A stretch of 23,044 bases of DNA from a virus. This document shows positions 5,621 to 11,001 of this stretch, piece by piece (positions within the stretch are counted from its first letter, which is position 1; the number at the start of each line of letters is the position of its first letter). The notes below the pieces were generated by a model, which saw only the letters and a program-made list of their open reading frames with translations, was not told the DNA's origin and made no database searches. The DNA lies in the IMG/VR virus record IMGVR_UViG_3300009149_000299, positions 1 to 23,044 of that record; one strand, 5' to 3'. The position numbers and the translations under genes are program-made.

Positions 5621-5917
5621 ATGAAAAACAAAGTTAGTGAGTTATTTTTTAATTACGCAATAGATTTCAAGGGAAAAAGTTACAAAAAAGGCTATGCCTA
5701 CAAACTTAATATGAATGATGTTGATATTAAGACTCTACTTAGAATGGGTTGTATTTATGCTGCAAAAGATGCAAAATATTACCAAGAGCCAAAAATAGAG
5801 ATTAAGCCTGTTGAGAAAACTGTAATCCAGGAAGTAAAAGAAAATGTCGATAATAAAACTATTGAGCCAGCAAAGGTACAAACAAGACCAGCCTTTAACG
5901 CAAACAACGTTAAATAG
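5621..5917 (+). CDS. Small protein of unknown function upstream of the portal
   Basis: This 98-residue protein starts just after the terminator, with AGGATG upstream. Residues 1-55 look folded (FFNYAIDFKGKSYKKGYAYKLN, then DIKTLLRMGCIYAAKD), and residues 58-98 are a Lys/Glu/Pro-rich, probably disordered tail. Small proteins with a similar outline are found near capsid genes, but I cannot name a family. The last 74 bp also encode the portal N-terminus in another frame, and the disordered tail is what one would expect of such dual-coding sequence. Role unknown; a head accessory protein is the best guess. Confidence 0.55.
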   Translation: MKNKVSELFFNYAIDFKGKSYKKGYAYKLNMNDVDIKTLLRMGCIYAAKDAKYYQEPKIEIKPVEKTVIQEVKENVDNKTIEPAKVQTRPAFNANNVK

Positions 5918-7127
5918 TTTTGTTTATGGTAATTCGATAAATGACAGTACTTCACTAGAGGTTGCTGCTTTTTATAGAGGTTTATTTTTTATCTCTTCTC
6001 AAGTTGCCAAAATGCCATGGGATATAAAAACTTTTGATAACAAAGTTGTTAACAATAATAACGATGTTTATGATCTTTTAAATATTTCACCAAATGATGA
6101 TATGAGTGCTTTTAACTGGAAGGTTTTATGTACTCAAATTGCTATTTTGCAAGGTAATTGTTTTAACGAAATAGTTCGCACAAGATCTGGTAAAATTCAC
6201 TCAATAATTCCAATGCTAAATTACGATGTATGCATGGTTAGAGATGGTGCTGGTAAATTATTTTATCAAATATCTAATACTAACGATGAATCTGAGTCAG
6301 TTGTTTATTTAAGAAAAGATGAAGTTCTTCATTTTAGAAATATTCATACTGAAGATGGCATAAATGGAATGTCTTTAATAAACCATGCAAGTAAGTCACT
6401 TGGACTCGCGGCCGGTGCAGATAGAATGGCCGGAAATATATTTGGTAACGGTGGTCTTCCTTCGGGTGTTCTAGAGACTGAAAGAGTATTAAGTCCAGAG
6501 GTTATAGAAAGATTAAAAGTTGAATGGAAAAATAAGTTTGGTGGTAATAAATCTGGTGGCGTTGCTGTATTAGAAGAGGGAATGAAGTTTAATCCGTTAA
6601 ATTTTGCCCCTGATGTTTTACAGTTTCTTGATTCTAGAAAATATTCTGTCTTAGAGATAGCAAGATTCTTAGGTGTTCCACCATCTAAATTATATGTATT
6701 AGAAGCTCAAAGTTATAACAATATTGAACACTCAAACTTAGAAGTATCAAATGATACCATCGACGTTTGGGCCAAAAACTTTGAGGGCGAAGTTAATATG
6801 AAACTTTTAAACAGTAAGGTTTCGAAACTAAAAAGTGACATGGATCTCTACGCAATTAATAGAGGCGACATGGATAAGAGATCATCTTATTTTCAAAAGA
6901 TGATTGGAAGTGGTGCAATGTCTCCTAACGAGATAAGAAGAAAGGAAGGGATGGCCATATATGAAGGTGGTGATGAATATTACATCTCAACAAATAACCT
7001 AACTCCAATTTCAAGACAAGATGAAATCATTGACTCTCAGATAAAACAAAAAGATACTGTAGATAAAAATAGTAAAGCCGATGATGATTTAAAAGCAGCT
7101 TTGGCCAAGAAAATTAACAAAAAATAA
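5844..7127 (+). CDS. Portal protein, HK97 gp3 type
   Basis: The portal forms the twelve-subunit ring at the DNA entry vertex and docks the terminase and connector. The 427 residues match the Phage_portal (HK97) family: SLEVAAFYRGLFFISSQVAKMPWDI near the N-terminus; INGMSLINHASKSLGLAAGADRMAGNIFGNGGLPSGVL in the middle; then GVAVLEEGMKFNPLNF, EIARFLGVPPSKL and the HSNLEVSNDTIDVWAKNFE helix; and a Lys/Asp-rich C-terminal tail. ATG 5844 is the only start ahead of conserved sequence, giving a 74-bp overlap with the preceding gene. It lies after the capsid genes rather than between terL and the protease, as is usual. Confidence 0.93.
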   Translation: MSIIKLLSQQRYKQDQPLTQTTLNSFVYGNSINDSTSLEVAAFYRGLFFISSQVAKMPWDIKTFDNKVVNNNNDVYDLLNISPNDDMSAFNWKVLCTQIAILQGNCFNEIVRTRSGKIHSIIPMLNYDVCMVRDGAGKLFYQISNTNDESESVVYLRKDEVLHFRNIHTEDGINGMSLINHASKSLGLAAGADRMAGNIFGNGGLPSGVLETERVLSPEVIERLKVEWKNKFGGNKSGGVAVLEEGMKFNPLNFAPDVLQFLDSRKYSVLEIARFLGVPPSKLYVLEAQSYNNIEHSNLEVSNDTIDVWAKNFEGEVNMKLLNSKVSKLKSDMDLYAINRGDMDKRSSYFQKMIGSGAMSPNEIRRKEGMAIYEGGDEYYISTNNLTPISRQDEIIDSQIKQKDTVDKNSKADDDLKAALAKKINKK

Positions 7128-7156: not shown

Positions 7157-8893
7157 ATGGATTTAAAAGAGATATATGCTCTAGTCGATTACTTAGTCGA
7201 GGAGAAGCTAAGCCAAGTAAATTTACCAAGTGGTCTTAAAGGAAGTCGAGGGCCTAGAGGTTTTGACGGTAAAGACTTTTCTTGGGATGAAAACCAAAGC
7301 GAAATACTAAAACACATAAGAAATAATTCCATAACATTTGAAAAGTTAACACCAGAGCAAGTAGAGTCTATTCGCGGTAAAGATGGTGAGCCAGGATTGC
7401 GTGGCTTAAAAGGTCGAGATGGTAAAGACTTTAATTGGGACGAACATAAGAAAGAGATATTAACTAGAGTTGATTCAACAAAATTAAAATTTTCAGATTT
7501 AAGTACAGAGGAAAAAGAATCATTAAAAGGATCTCGTGGTTTTAGAGGTCAAAAAGGTGCTCCAGGAAAAAGGGGTATTGACGGTAAGGATGGGCTTGAT
7601 GGAAGTTCATTTAATTGGGACGATCACGTAGATGAAGTTTCAAAAATAATTAAATCAAATAAACTAAAACTATCAAAAGAAGAAATAGAATCACTTAGAG
7701 GTGAGCAAGGTATTAAAGGGCCAAAGGGTGTGGCCGGAAAAGATGGTATAGATGGACAAAACTTTGTTTGGAACGATCACAAAGAAAAAATATTTAATAA
7801 AATAGAATCACATAAATTAAAATTTTCTGACTTAAGTGAAAAAGAAGTCGAATCATTAAAAGGTGCCAGAGGTTATCGCGGTCAAAAAGGTGCGCGTGGT
7901 AGTGATGGACAAAAAGGTATTGACGGTAAAGATGGTGCTGTTGGTAAGTCTGGAGTTCCAGGAATACAAGGTCTTCAGGGTTTTGCTGGGCGAGATGGAA
8001 GATCTGGGCTAGATGGACTTGATGGTGAAGACGCTCCAACAATAATAGATATTCAACTAAGAGAAGATAGGGGTACTTTTTATTTTGTATTCTATTTTAG
8101 TAATGGATCAATTGTTGAAACTAAATCAATTGATAAGCCAGTTGTAGAAAGCATTATTCAAAACACAGTAATGTACGCTGGTGGTGGGTCTAGTACTGGT
8201 GGTGGCGCTTCTGTTTTAGAAGTATATAAAGATTCAATTTTAGCAGGACTATCTGAGTCGTTAAATTTTACTGGAGACAATATAGTTGTTTCCTACGATT
8301 CAAACACAAGTCAATCAACAATATCAGTAACAGAAAAATGTATTCCAGTTCTAGATGAAGGAACGCAAGTTGCATCATGTTTAAATAGTATTGACTTTGT
8401 TGGTGCTGGAGTAACGGTTGTAAACACAACTGTCATGGCCGATTGGACTAGTTTATCTATTGTTACATCTATGGCCAATTACCAAGCTTTTGACACTGGA
8501 AATGTTGTAGTTAATATTCCACAAAACGAAATTTCTGCTAAGCTTGGAGTAACCAGAATAGCATCTGAAGATATTGCTCAGTTTAGTTTAGTTAGACTTG
8601 TTTCAAGTACTCATGTTGCAAATGGATCTAGTGATACAGAATTAGAATCAAAAATATCAGGTATAGCATTAAATGCAGCACTCACTGGGGAAAATGTAGA
8701 TTTTGTTATGTTTGGAATAATAGAAGATGCAAGCTTTGTATTTCCATTACTGGCAAAGTTATTTTTACAATCAAACGGAACACTCGGACTTGTACCACCA
8801 AGCGCTGTAGGACAATTTATTGTTGTCACTGGTGAGTCACTTGGTACGGGTGCAGTTTTTGTTAACATACAAGAGCCAGAGGAGATCATATGA
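7157..8893 (+). CDS. Collagen-like fibre protein with repeated helical modules
   Basis: This 578-residue protein is probably a trimeric surface fibre. Residues 1-25 are an amphipathic helix, a possible attachment point. Residues 26-292 hold five Gly-X-Y tracts (about 5, 6, 9, 7 and 19 triplets). They are separated by four copies of a 31-34-residue module starting F-x-W-[DN] and ending E-S-[LI]-[KR]-G. A beta stretch follows (IIDIQLREDRGTFYFVFYFSNG), then a Gly/Ser hinge (GGGSSTGGG), a beta-rich middle, and a C-terminal domain from about residue 480 resembling those of two proteins downstream. Collagen tracts are common in phage fibres; the module is not one I know. Placement beside the portal suggests a head or neck fibre. 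Confidence 0.8.
   Translation: MDLKEIYALVDYLVEEKLSQVNLPSGLKGSRGPRGFDGKDFSWDENQSEILKHIRNNSITFEKLTPEQVESIRGKDGEPGLRGLKGRDGKDFNWDEHKKEILTRVDSTKLKFSDLSTEEKESLKGSRGFRGQKGAPGKRGIDGKDGLDGSSFNWDDHVDEVSKIIKSNKLKLSKEEIESLRGEQGIKGPKGVAGKDGIDGQNFVWNDHKEKIFNKIESHKLKFSDLSEKEVESLKGARGYRGQKGARGSDGQKGIDGKDGAVGKSGVPGIQGLQGFAGRDGRSGLDGLDGEDAPTIIDIQLREDRGTFYFVFYFSNGSIVETKSIDKPVVESIIQNTVMYAGGGSSTGGGASVLEVYKDSILAGLSESLNFTGDNIVVSYDSNTSQSTISVTEKCIPVLDEGTQVASCLNSIDFVGAGVTVVNTTVMADWTSLSIVTSMANYQAFDTGNVVVNIPQNEISAKLGVTRIASEDIAQFSLVRLVSSTHVANGSSDTELESKISGIALNAALTGENVDFVMFGIIEDASFVFPLLAKLFLQSNGTLGLVPPSAVGQFIVVTGESLGTGAVFVNIQEPEEII
7277..7864 (+). repeat. Four in-frame helical modules interrupting collagen tracts
   Basis: Within the fibre gene, modules begin at residues 41, 92, 152 and 203 (bases 7277, 7430, 7610 and 7763), so periods are 51, 60 and 51 residues. 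The shared pattern is F-x-W-[DN]-[DE]-[HN], then [EK]-[IV], then [ST]-x-K-L-K-[FL]-S-x-L-S in copies 2 and 4, and E-S-[LI]-[KR]-G. Copy 3 lacks three residues around the S-D-L segment. DNA identity between copies is only partial, so this is an old, diverged duplication. Confidence 0.85.
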
Positions 8894-9324
8894 GCTATAA
8901 AATTATAGCCAGAGATGATACTGGTAAAAAGATTCAAGTAGATCCGACCACTATTGGAGGAGCTAATGTTGTACTTCCTAATGTAACATGTCTTGCGAGT
9001 GTATTTGTTGGTGCAGTTGTCATTATGGATGTTGGTGGTTTTGCTAAAAACGCAATTGCAAACTCACTTGCTAATTCAAATATAATTGGAGTTGTTGAGA
9101 GTAAAGCATCAACCGTACTTTGCAATATCAGAGTTATTGGGGTGACAGATGCAATATTTTCTGGTCTAGATGTTACTAAGGAATATTTCTTATCAGATTC
9201 AGTGGCCGGAACAATGGTGAATGTTGCACCGATCGCATCTGGAAGTGTAATTATAAGAGTAGGGCAACCATTTAGCGCGACAGAGTTATTGGTTAATAAA
9301 GGACAACGAGTAGTAAGGAGTTAG
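8890..9324 (+). CDS. Head-fibre-like beta protein, similar to the collagen fibre C-terminus
   Basis: The 144-residue protein starts in an ATGA overlap with the collagen-like gene. After a short N-terminus (SYKIIARDDTGKKIQVDPTTIGGANVVLPNV) it follows the pattern VFVGAVVIMDVGGFAKNAIANSLANSNIIGVVESKAS..IRVIGVTDAI..GLDVTKEYFLSD...GSVIIRVG. This small beta fold recurs at the C-terminus of the collagen-like fibre and of the 458-residue fibre downstream. It resembles surface-exposed trimerising domains in phage head-fibre proteins. It may be a partner or cap for the fibre made just upstream. The similarity is judged by eye; no precise family is claimed. Confidence 0.6.
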   Translation: MSYKIIARDDTGKKIQVDPTTIGGANVVLPNVTCLASVFVGAVVIMDVGGFAKNAIANSLANSNIIGVVESKASTVLCNIRVIGVTDAIFSGLDVTKEYFLSDSVAGTMVNVAPIASGSVIIRVGQPFSATELLVNKGQRVVRS

Positions 9325-9326
9325 GG

Positions 9327-9632
9327 GTGGCAGTTAAAAAGAAAGTGGCAAAAAAATTAGTTGAGAAAAAGTGTTTATCAGAAGTTGAAATGTTAAAAAG
9401 TGATCTACTTACAAAAGAGATGAGATTACTTGAGCTAGAGACTTTGGCCATAACACAAAAGAAAAAGATATTCGATTTAGAGTTTGAAAAACAGGCTCAA
9501 AAAAAGCATAATGAATATAACATGGCACGTGACAAAAAAACGTTTTTCATTAATGAATTAAAAGAAAAATACAAAACAACCAAGGATCAAATTAGTTATG
9601 ATCCAATAACAGGAGAAATCAAGGATGAGTGA
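9327..9632 (+). CDS. Lys/Glu-rich coiled-coil protein
   Basis: This 101-residue protein starts at GTG 9327, with TAAGGAG 6 nt upstream and the previous stop immediately before it. The N-terminus is very basic (MAVKKKVAKKLVEKK). Residues about 17-75 form one continuous heptad-like helix (SEVEMLKSDLLTKEMRLLELETLAITQKKKIFDLEFEKQAQKK), followed by a short polar tail. It has no Gly, Pro or aromatic core until the end, so it is probably a coiled-coil rod or oligomeriser. Sitting between two fibre genes, it could be a fibre chaperone or linker; this is inferred from position only. It overlaps the next gene by 8 bp. Confidence 0.6.
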   Translation: MAVKKKVAKKLVEKKCLSEVEMLKSDLLTKEMRLLELETLAITQKKKIFDLEFEKQAQKKHNEYNMARDKKTFFINELKEKYKTTKDQISYDPITGEIKDE

Positions 9633-11001
9633 AAAATTCCTCAAGGTAGGGCCGGAAGGCGCTTATGACGAAGTATTAGGTTTTTTAACAAGTGAGTTTG
9701 TTGATGCAAGTGTTGGTGTTGCTGATGCTGGTAAGCCAGTTATCTTGGACGCAGCAGGATTGATTGATAGTTCAATGGTTAACGTTGGAACTCTTGATCA
9801 CGGAGCTTTGCTTCCAGCATCTTTACTGGATGACGATCATACAATTTATTCTTTAGCAGATGGTTCGAGAGATTATTCTGCATCAGTAAGTTATGCTTCA
9901 CATCCAGTTTTTACTACTGATCTTCAGATAGTCGATAAAAAATATGTTGATGATGTTGCTGCTACTCTTGAGTGGCAAGACAGTGTTTTAGACGCTGACA
10001 TACTAGATCCTACTGCCTTGACTCCAACTACAGGTGACAGATACCTAATCAATGGTACTGGTGCTGGTGCGTGGGTTGGACAAGACAACAATATCGCTGA
10101 GTGGAATGGTACTGCATGGGTTTATACAACTCCAACAGTAGGTATGAGAGTCGGTGCTGATGATGAGCCAAATGTTGCTTTCTATCTTTATGGTGGTGCT
10201 ACTTGGTCTGCTAAACTACTAGAGGCAACTACAGCTTCAACTGGTTTGGTTAAAGTTGGTCAAGACGTAAGACTTGATGCTTCAAGTGCTGGTGACGGTT
10301 TAGGTTTTACTGCTGGTGTTTTAGCTGTAAATGTTGATGATAGTTCAATTGAAATAATCACTGATACTCTGAATGTAAAAGCTTTAGGTATTACAGATGC
10401 AATGTTAGCTGGAAGTATTTCTGATGGTAAACTTGCTCAAGATTATATCCAAACAACTGAAGTAGATAACGTAACAATTGAGTTTGGTACTACTTTAAAC
10501 GTTAAAGATGATGGTATAAACGCTCTTAAAATCGATTGGGGTCTAGGAGCTAACCAAGTATCGGCTAGTGATTTACCAATTGCTGATGCTGGTGGGTATA
10601 CTGCTGAGACGGATGCTGAAGGCGCTATACAAGAGCTTTATAGCTTGCTTTCTGATAGAGGTGTTGAATTAACATCTGCTGGTGTTTCTAAGGGAGATCT
10701 TGTTTATGTATCTGCTAATAACACGCTTGCTACTTATAGCACTATTACTACATTTCATAAAGCAGTAGGTCTTGCAAACGCAACTGTTGCTGCTGCTAGT
10801 CCTGTTAAGTCTTTATCAAATGATACTAGAGTTAACGGTATTTTATCTGGAGCAACTGCTGGTGATGTTTATTATTGGGATGGTACAAACCATGTCAATA
10901 GTATTCCTGCTGGATCTGGAGCTTATGTAATTCAGACTGGTACAGCAATTAATGCTACGGATTTGTATTGCGAGTGCCGATTAGTAAAGAAAAATATTTA
11001 A
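9625..11001 (+). CDS. Large fibre protein with a DUF2793-like module
   Basis: The 458-residue protein looks like a structural fibre. Residues about 110-120 have the fibre motif IVDKKYVDDVA. Residues about 125-185 match the DUF2793 pattern: an early W, TPTTGDRYLI, GAWVGQDNNIAEWNGTAWVYTTP and VGMR. Next is a long beta-rich stretch of short repeats (LNVKALGITDAMLAGSISDGKLA, LNVKDDGINALKI), seen in many virion proteins with a predicted beta-prism shaft. The C-terminus (about 345-458, KGDLVYVSANNTLA...AVGLAN...VNGILSG..GDVYYWDG) resembles the two fibre proteins upstream. Codon use leans to GGT/GCT, suggesting good expression. A strong hairpin follows. Confidence 0.7.
   Translation: MSEKFLKVGPEGAYDEVLGFLTSEFVDASVGVADAGKPVILDAAGLIDSSMVNVGTLDHGALLPASLLDDDHTIYSLADGSRDYSASVSYASHPVFTTDLQIVDKKYVDDVAATLEWQDSVLDADILDPTALTPTTGDRYLINGTGAGAWVGQDNNIAEWNGTAWVYTTPTVGMRVGADDEPNVAFYLYGGATWSAKLLEATTASTGLVKVGQDVRLDASSAGDGLGFTAGVLAVNVDDSSIEIITDTLNVKALGITDAMLAGSISDGKLAQDYIQTTEVDNVTIEFGTTLNVKDDGINALKIDWGLGANQVSASDLPIADAGGYTAETDAEGAIQELYSLLSDRGVELTSAGVSKGDLVYVSANNTLATYSTITTFHKAVGLANATVAAASPVKSLSNDTRVNGILSGATAGDVYYWDGTNHVNSIPAGSGAYVIQTGTAINATDLYCECRLVKKNI

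Follow-up and report, generated by a model that had tools for sequence, protein, structure and literature searches.

A portal-adjacent collagen-like fibre of uncultivated tailed phages, in which short Gly-X-Y tracts alternate with a length-controlled, probably helical module

The stretch of DNA analysed here (the window) has 23,044 bases, makes up one virus record and represents a tailed-phage structural operon. It encodes a protein of 578 aa (7157-8893, plus strand, as are all features of the window given below) in which five Gly-X-Y tracts alternate with four copies of a conserved, probably helical module, and this architecture is shared by a family of fibre genes from metagenomic phages. 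The protein probably forms a fibre on the virion of an uncultivated tailed phage whose head is of the HK97 type, its likely site being the head or neck and not the tail tip. We are somewhat inclined to see it as a homotrimer attached to the head or neck, in which the modules would clamp and register the short collagen tracts.

The operon runs in the order terminase, ClpP-like protease, HK97-type major capsid protein (Pfam E 8e-33), portal, fibre, connector, tape measure and J-like tail protein, the terminase, protease and connector being named by sequence and position. The portal gene (5844-7127; Pfam Phage_portal E 4e-81) is directly 5' of the fibre gene, which is an ATG-start open frame with a match to Pfam Collagen (PF01391) of E 5e-19 and 68.3 bits, for a cut-off of 27.2. 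The gene order TerL-ClpP-MCP-x-portal-fibre is kept across the fibre family. Of 57 loci, an automated rule scored 53 as having the fibre immediately 3' of the portal gene. Among the other four, three show a portal match that runs a few bases into the start of the fibre ORF, and the contig of the last one starts within the fibre. Wherever the flank is visible, the fibre gene is the immediate successor of the portal gene. The TerL proteins of four loci (L020, L055, L038 and L012) are 67-73% identical to that of the window and the adjoining head genes only 37-45%, which suggests recombination at the terminase.

The chain opens with a helix (residues 1-25, 7157-7231) that AlphaFold2 places at residues 3-20 with pLDDT 76-84 and that we propose as the virion anchor. 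The Gly-X-Y tracts lie exactly where an earlier reading made from the sequence only had located them: tract 1 has 5 triplets (residues 26-40, 7232-7276), tract 2 has 6 (residues 74-91, 7376-7429), tract 3 has 9 (residues 125-151, 7529-7609), tract 4 has 7 (residues 182-202, 7700-7762) and tract 5 has 19 (residues 236-292, 7862-8032). A Pfam search of the whole fibre at E up to 0.1 rendered no family besides Collagen. Between the tracts stand module 1 (FSWDEN...VESIR; 33 aa, residues 41-73, 7277-7375), module 2 (FNWDEH...KESLK; 33 aa, residues 92-124, 7430-7528), module 3 (FNWDDH...IESLR; 30 aa, residues 152-181, 7610-7699) and module 4 (FVWNDH...VESLK; 33 aa, residues 203-235, 7763-7861). The segment length of 31-34 residues given in the sequence-only reading fits three of them, the third falling one residue outside that range; the linker of this module is without FSD. 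The phenylalanine, the tryptophan, the leucine before the second half, the E-S pair and the flanking glycines are invariant in all four. The F-x-W-D start that had been described is the version of the window, since family-wide the third position can be F, W, L, I, V or Y.

Scored pairwise with BLOSUM62, the four modules sum to 453. In 2000 shuffles that kept the composition the mean was -46 (sd 22) and the highest score 29, which gives a z of 22.9. Judged by their sequences, the four interrupters are homologous, with a kinship far beyond chance. Their helical appearance agrees with the AlphaFold2 monomer model, which predicts a helix-loop-helix in each with moderate confidence (helices 43-57 and 66-73 in module 1, 94-107 and 117-124 in module 2, 154-167 and 174-181 in module 3, with lower confidence, and 205-219 and 228-235 in module 4); pLDDT is below 70 over most of the length of modules 3 and 4. 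All the models were of monomers, and their mean pLDDT was 67 for the window fibre and 60 for that of the relative L019.

Searched against viral contigs, the four modules rendered 18 loci, and a second scan with a wider alignment rendered 66, from which 56 non-identical fibre ORFs of metagenomic phages were extracted, about 50 after accounting for near-duplicates. A profile built from the four modules therefore finds copies in other fibres, and the module is repeated and conserved in the homologues, with its length restricted to a few classes. In N-terminally complete relatives a helix-like stretch of about 25 residues is followed by the alternation of Gly-X-Y tracts and modules; the last tract is usually long, and is usually followed by a beta domain starting with APxIxDI. 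Inter-module tracts of 3-5 triplets make up 93 of 120 across the family, and the number of modules is exactly four in 24 of 42 fibres. Among the loci recovered, the full module is confined to the fibre lineage adjoining the portal gene; an unrelated ORF of 1,440 residues (L086) carries the 15-residue unit described below only. Uncultivated phages that carry a collagen fibre gene beside the portal gene thus form a widespread group.

When 84,980 species genomes were scanned, the single match was L087, an all-phage contig within a Candidatus Dependentiae MAG. The portal of this phage was found in 1 of the 101 genomes searched around it, so that contamination is as likely as a link to a Dependentiae host, and no host is assigned through this match. 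The terminase large subunit gene of the same contig (L087, 2-2035) appears to bear an intein-like insertion. In L006 the fibre ORF (5740-6522) leaves the frame past module 4 when compared with the near-identical L005 (3549-5333), by either an assembly error or a real frameshift. A second, unrelated type of interrupter (SYDTWL...DYLKSL / AYEIAVENGFVGTEEEWLESL) was observed in L005 (residues 257-277), L033, L050, L068 and L087.

The lengths of the interrupters are markedly constrained: 141 of the 181 extracted, a few of which are not true modules (for example a C-terminal segment of L033), have 33, 41, 56 or 59 residues. The module is composed of a head helix with an F-x-[WFL] start and one to four units of 15 residues with the consensus LKxFSDLTxEExxSLK. 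In 136 of the 150 interrupters that end in the 15-mer the head has 14, 18 or 26 residues, steps of about 4 residues that are near whole helical turns. The 33-residue form of the window corresponds to a head of 18 plus one unit, the 56-residue form to a head of 26 plus two units, and the 59-residue form, which is usually the last before the long tract, to a head of 14 plus three units. In the AlphaFold2 models of the window fibre and of L019 the head forms helix 1, and each unit contributes a short FSDL loop and a helix 2 of 7-8 residues, with identical helix boundaries relative to the module; 10-residue means of confidence over the modules are about 54-84 in these monomer models. The L-[ST]-x-x-E-[IVK] motif at the start of helix 2 is presumably a helix capping box with a hydrophobic staple. 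Hydrophobic positions are invariant across the 181 modules.

The inter-module tracts, with mostly 3-5 triplets, are shorter than the peptides that form stable triple helices alone, so that the registration of the three chains needs some other support. Judging from their anatomy, the helical modules, conserved and controlled in length, are plausible and obvious candidates for giving it. Each module would be a three-chain helical knot in which the chains are brought together in register, and this registration would let the short Gly-X-Y tracts between modules fold. Modules could also give the shaft thicker and perhaps flexible points that determine its spacing. If they do trimerise and register the chains, the use by these phages of tracts of only 3-5 triplets would be explained.

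It could also be the case that the modules are just flexible spacers or hinges, short amphipathic helices that break the triple helix so as to allow bends and fix the length of a fibre trimerised solely by its terminal beta domains. In natural collagens, interruptions can serve as flexible sites, the confidence of AlphaFold2 is low in modules 3 and 4, and the modules are less conserved than both ends of the protein when the window is compared with L005. In that comparison, which involves the only close pair, the modules are the least conserved segments, with 58% identity, a pattern that a spacer or hinge would explain no worse than a clamp; their dN/dS is about 0.24, with synonymous sites near saturation, a value indicative, at the sequence level, of purifying selection. 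The N-terminal helix, with 80% identity and a dN/dS of 0.13, is among the two most conserved segments. The strict length classes and the invariant hydrophobics of the 181 modules, however, exceed what a spacer needs, and without trimerisation nearby, folding would be difficult for tracts of 3-5 triplets. We regard the spacer explanation as unlikely, albeit one to be kept in mind.

The hydrophobic pattern bears on how the three chains might be wound. In the 41-, 56- and 59-residue classes the periodicity peaks at 3.71-3.75 residues per turn (bootstrap 3.70-3.76), with power at 3.5 far below this peak, and the hydrophobics of the head helix are spaced 4-4-3-4. A heptad periodicity of 3.5 therefore lacks support in these classes, while modules 1 to 4 of the window peak at 3.57, 3.51, 3.74 and 3.66, two of them close to 3.5. 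Right-handed coils show 11- or 15-residue periodicity, and heptad coils switch handedness at the junction with collagen (PMC3368898). The peak and the head spacing would suit modules that form a right-handed three-stranded alpha-helical coil (15/4) with a twist matching that of the collagen superhelix, which is also right-handed, the two making one continuous right-handed rope. AlphaFold2, though, breaks the helix at every FSDL loop, so that the 15-residue period may reflect the tandem repeat only, and the modules of the window are without a clear 3.75 peak. For these two reasons the continuous right-handed coil was demoted from lead model, and we consider it quite improbable. A bolder version of the clamp reading, also doubtful, is that an undescribed trimerisation module, made of a variable head helix and n units of 15 residues, strings short collagen into long registered fibres without hydroxyproline, maybe with a right-handed twist throughout as one continuous superhelix. 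Were the modules true clamps, they would be short, genetically modular tools for stable unmodified collagen in bacteria.

The sequence-only reading had not recognised the interrupter as a known one, and for the module as a whole this agrees with the profile libraries searched: no profile match above threshold to the modules was found in Pfam, PHROGs or PDB, which leaves room for a known fold, and the matches to Pfam and PDB profiles that did appear were sub-threshold and attributable to chance. A Foldseek search with the L019 model, which bears tandem 15-mers, gave nothing with E <0.4, a result uninformative either way given the mean pLDDT of that model. The second half of the module, on the contrary, already occurs in cultured phages. 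With the 15-residue unit and its collagen flanks as query, 75 cultured-phage records were matched, from Staphylococcus, Streptococcus, Campylobacter, Mycobacterium, Gordonia and Vibrio phages. The unit follows the pattern F/L-x-[FY]-x-D-[LF]-T-x-E-[EQ]-x-x-x-L-[KR]. Among the records inspected, examples of exact 15-residue interrupters between Gly-X-Y tracts are FVYSDFTPAQLALLK in Vibrio BD1, FTYEDFTEEQLENLK in a Campylobacter phage and FKYSDFTEEQLSNLK in Staphylococcus Machias. Inspection of one Mycobacterium record (Twister) did not find the 15-residue interrupter, so that some of the 75 records match on collagen alone.

The FxYxDFTxEQxxxLK interrupters of Staphylococcus IME1323 and Machias, Vibrio BD1 and CHOED and Campylobacter 3PH123 have the length of the second half of the module, share its hydrophobic and capping positions and are flanked by Gly-X-Y, but they are without the F-x-[WF]-E-E-H head helix and are mostly single units. 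Collagen broken up by small helical units is therefore an existing phage design, and the novelty lies in the head helix and in the quantised, composite make-up of the module; in the literature searched, neither this composite module nor the phage family that carries it appears to have been described. Of the nearest annotated phages in whole-protein tblastn, Salmonella As2 and Cutibacterium CaCom2 were inspected and discarded: the protein of each has one long collagen run and no modules, so that their matches rest on Gly-X-Y composition.

After the last tract, the chain of the window fibre continues with a small beta domain of the form APxIxDIx(n)FxFxFSNGxxIETxxI (8033-8146), modelled with a pLDDT of about 90 and 84% identical to that of L005; this domain is nearly constant across the family. 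The C-terminal domain (residues 456-578, 8522-8890), with a pLDDT of about 95 over most of it, is predicted to have the beta-tulip fold of capsid-cement and head-fibre proteins, as indicated by Foldseek/VIA comparisons. VIA aligned it with HFTV1 (8qsy) at Z 11.5 and an rmsd of 3.2 over 110 residues, and with the capsid decoration proteins of Adjutor, Pam3 and T1 at Z 10.8, 10.4 and 9.6. Against phi29 gp8.5 (6qyy) it gave Z 7.1 and an rmsd of 3.1 over 91 residues, with a Foldseek E of 6e-4, a match that is moderate alone and stands beside Z values of 8-11.5 for other tulip cement proteins. The fibre would thus run from an N-terminal helix anchor through a shaft of collagen and modules to the small beta domain and the beta-tulip domain. 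Since the N-terminal helix is conserved and the C-terminal domains vary, anchoring would be N-terminal.

The closest link to a known fibre was found with a C-terminal profile (A6), which matched gp82 of the Anabaena phage A-1(L) (PDB 8keg) over gp82 residues 97-240 with E 8e-15, indicating that the C-terminal domain of gp82 is homologous to the tulip of the window fibre. In A-1(L) the N-terminal domain of gp82 fastens the gp82 trimer to the neck, and gp81 beads are strung from gp82C, with gp80 at the far end of the chain (PMC10966104). The fibre family is thereby tied by homology to a neck fibre of known architecture, and the match is compatible with the polarity of N-terminal anchoring. There are also differences between the two: gp82 has 241 aa, with collagen not mentioned in PMC10966104, whereas the window fibre has a collagen shaft; the N-terminal domain of gp82 was not found in the profile match, which begins at gp82 residue 97, and the window fibre has upstream of it the collagen, the modules and the APxIxDI domain; and the neck-fibre genes of A-1(L) are far from other structural genes, whereas the window fibre gene adjoins the portal.

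The head fibre gp8.5 of phi29 (6qyy, 6qvk) also has a beta-tulip domain (PMC6542822, PMC7602432), and its stem is described as a trimeric helix-turn-helix supercoil. In gp8.5 the tulip is N-terminal and capsid-binding, and no collagen is described; in the window fibre the order is reversed, with modules at residues 41-235 and the tulip at the C-terminal end, and helices alternate with collagen. SPP1 gp12 is described as a collagen-like trimeric capsid spike (PMC7602432); the window fibre resembles it in being collagen-like and would share its site on a phage head, and no alternating helical modules are described in gp12. In the E. coli prophage collagens EPclA and EPclB the collagen is next to a proven trimeric alpha-helical PCoil (PMC3368898). 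The PCoil is one long heptad region rich in Ala/Ser at one end, whereas the window-type modules are built around Leu/Ile/Phe cores, are not rich in Ala/Ser and recur between short tracts. The EPcl proteins have PfN, Pf2 and PfC phage-fibre domains; in the window fibre, Pfam at E up to 0.1 gave Collagen alone.

The alternative of a tail fibre, that is, a receptor-binding fibre at the tail tip with an exchangeable C-terminal domain that binds the receptor, has in its favour that the PHROGs entries matched by the collagen part bear tail-fibre names, and that relatives keep the N-terminal helix but differ in their C-terminal domains. Those names, however, rest mostly on collagen repeats, and composition alone gives such matches. 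The gene is moreover kept in the head operon between portal and connector, and both the tulip fold and the homology with the gp82 neck fibre argue against a tail tip, which we find rather improbable. The C-terminal fragment of phi29 gp12 has the tulip fold as well, and so do tail-fibre-like proteins in BFVD, so that the fold does not settle the attachment site.

The next gene (8890-9324) encodes a tulip-type protein of 144 aa assigned to type B in a profile-profile comparison of tulip types, the fibre end being of type A. Types A and B match each other with a profile-profile probability of 99.8%. A fibre ending in type A is followed by a type B gene in 8 loci, and the reverse occurs in 6, the alternation having been noted in the window, L016, L032, L033, L040, L056 and L087; 30 of 57 loci are without either type in the available stretch, some being truncated and others having quite different C-terminal domains. 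By analogy, types A and B read as two partner domains of one joint, as gp82C and gp81 are, and gp82 shares its operon with the bead protein that docks on gp82C, an arrangement comparable to that of the tulip gene at 8890-9324, whose product probably docks on the C-terminal end of the fibre. Further downstream in the window (9625-11001), a protein of 458 aa has a DUF2793 match (Pfam E 1.4e-10), and its C-terminal part resembles, by eye, a putative tulip-type domain.
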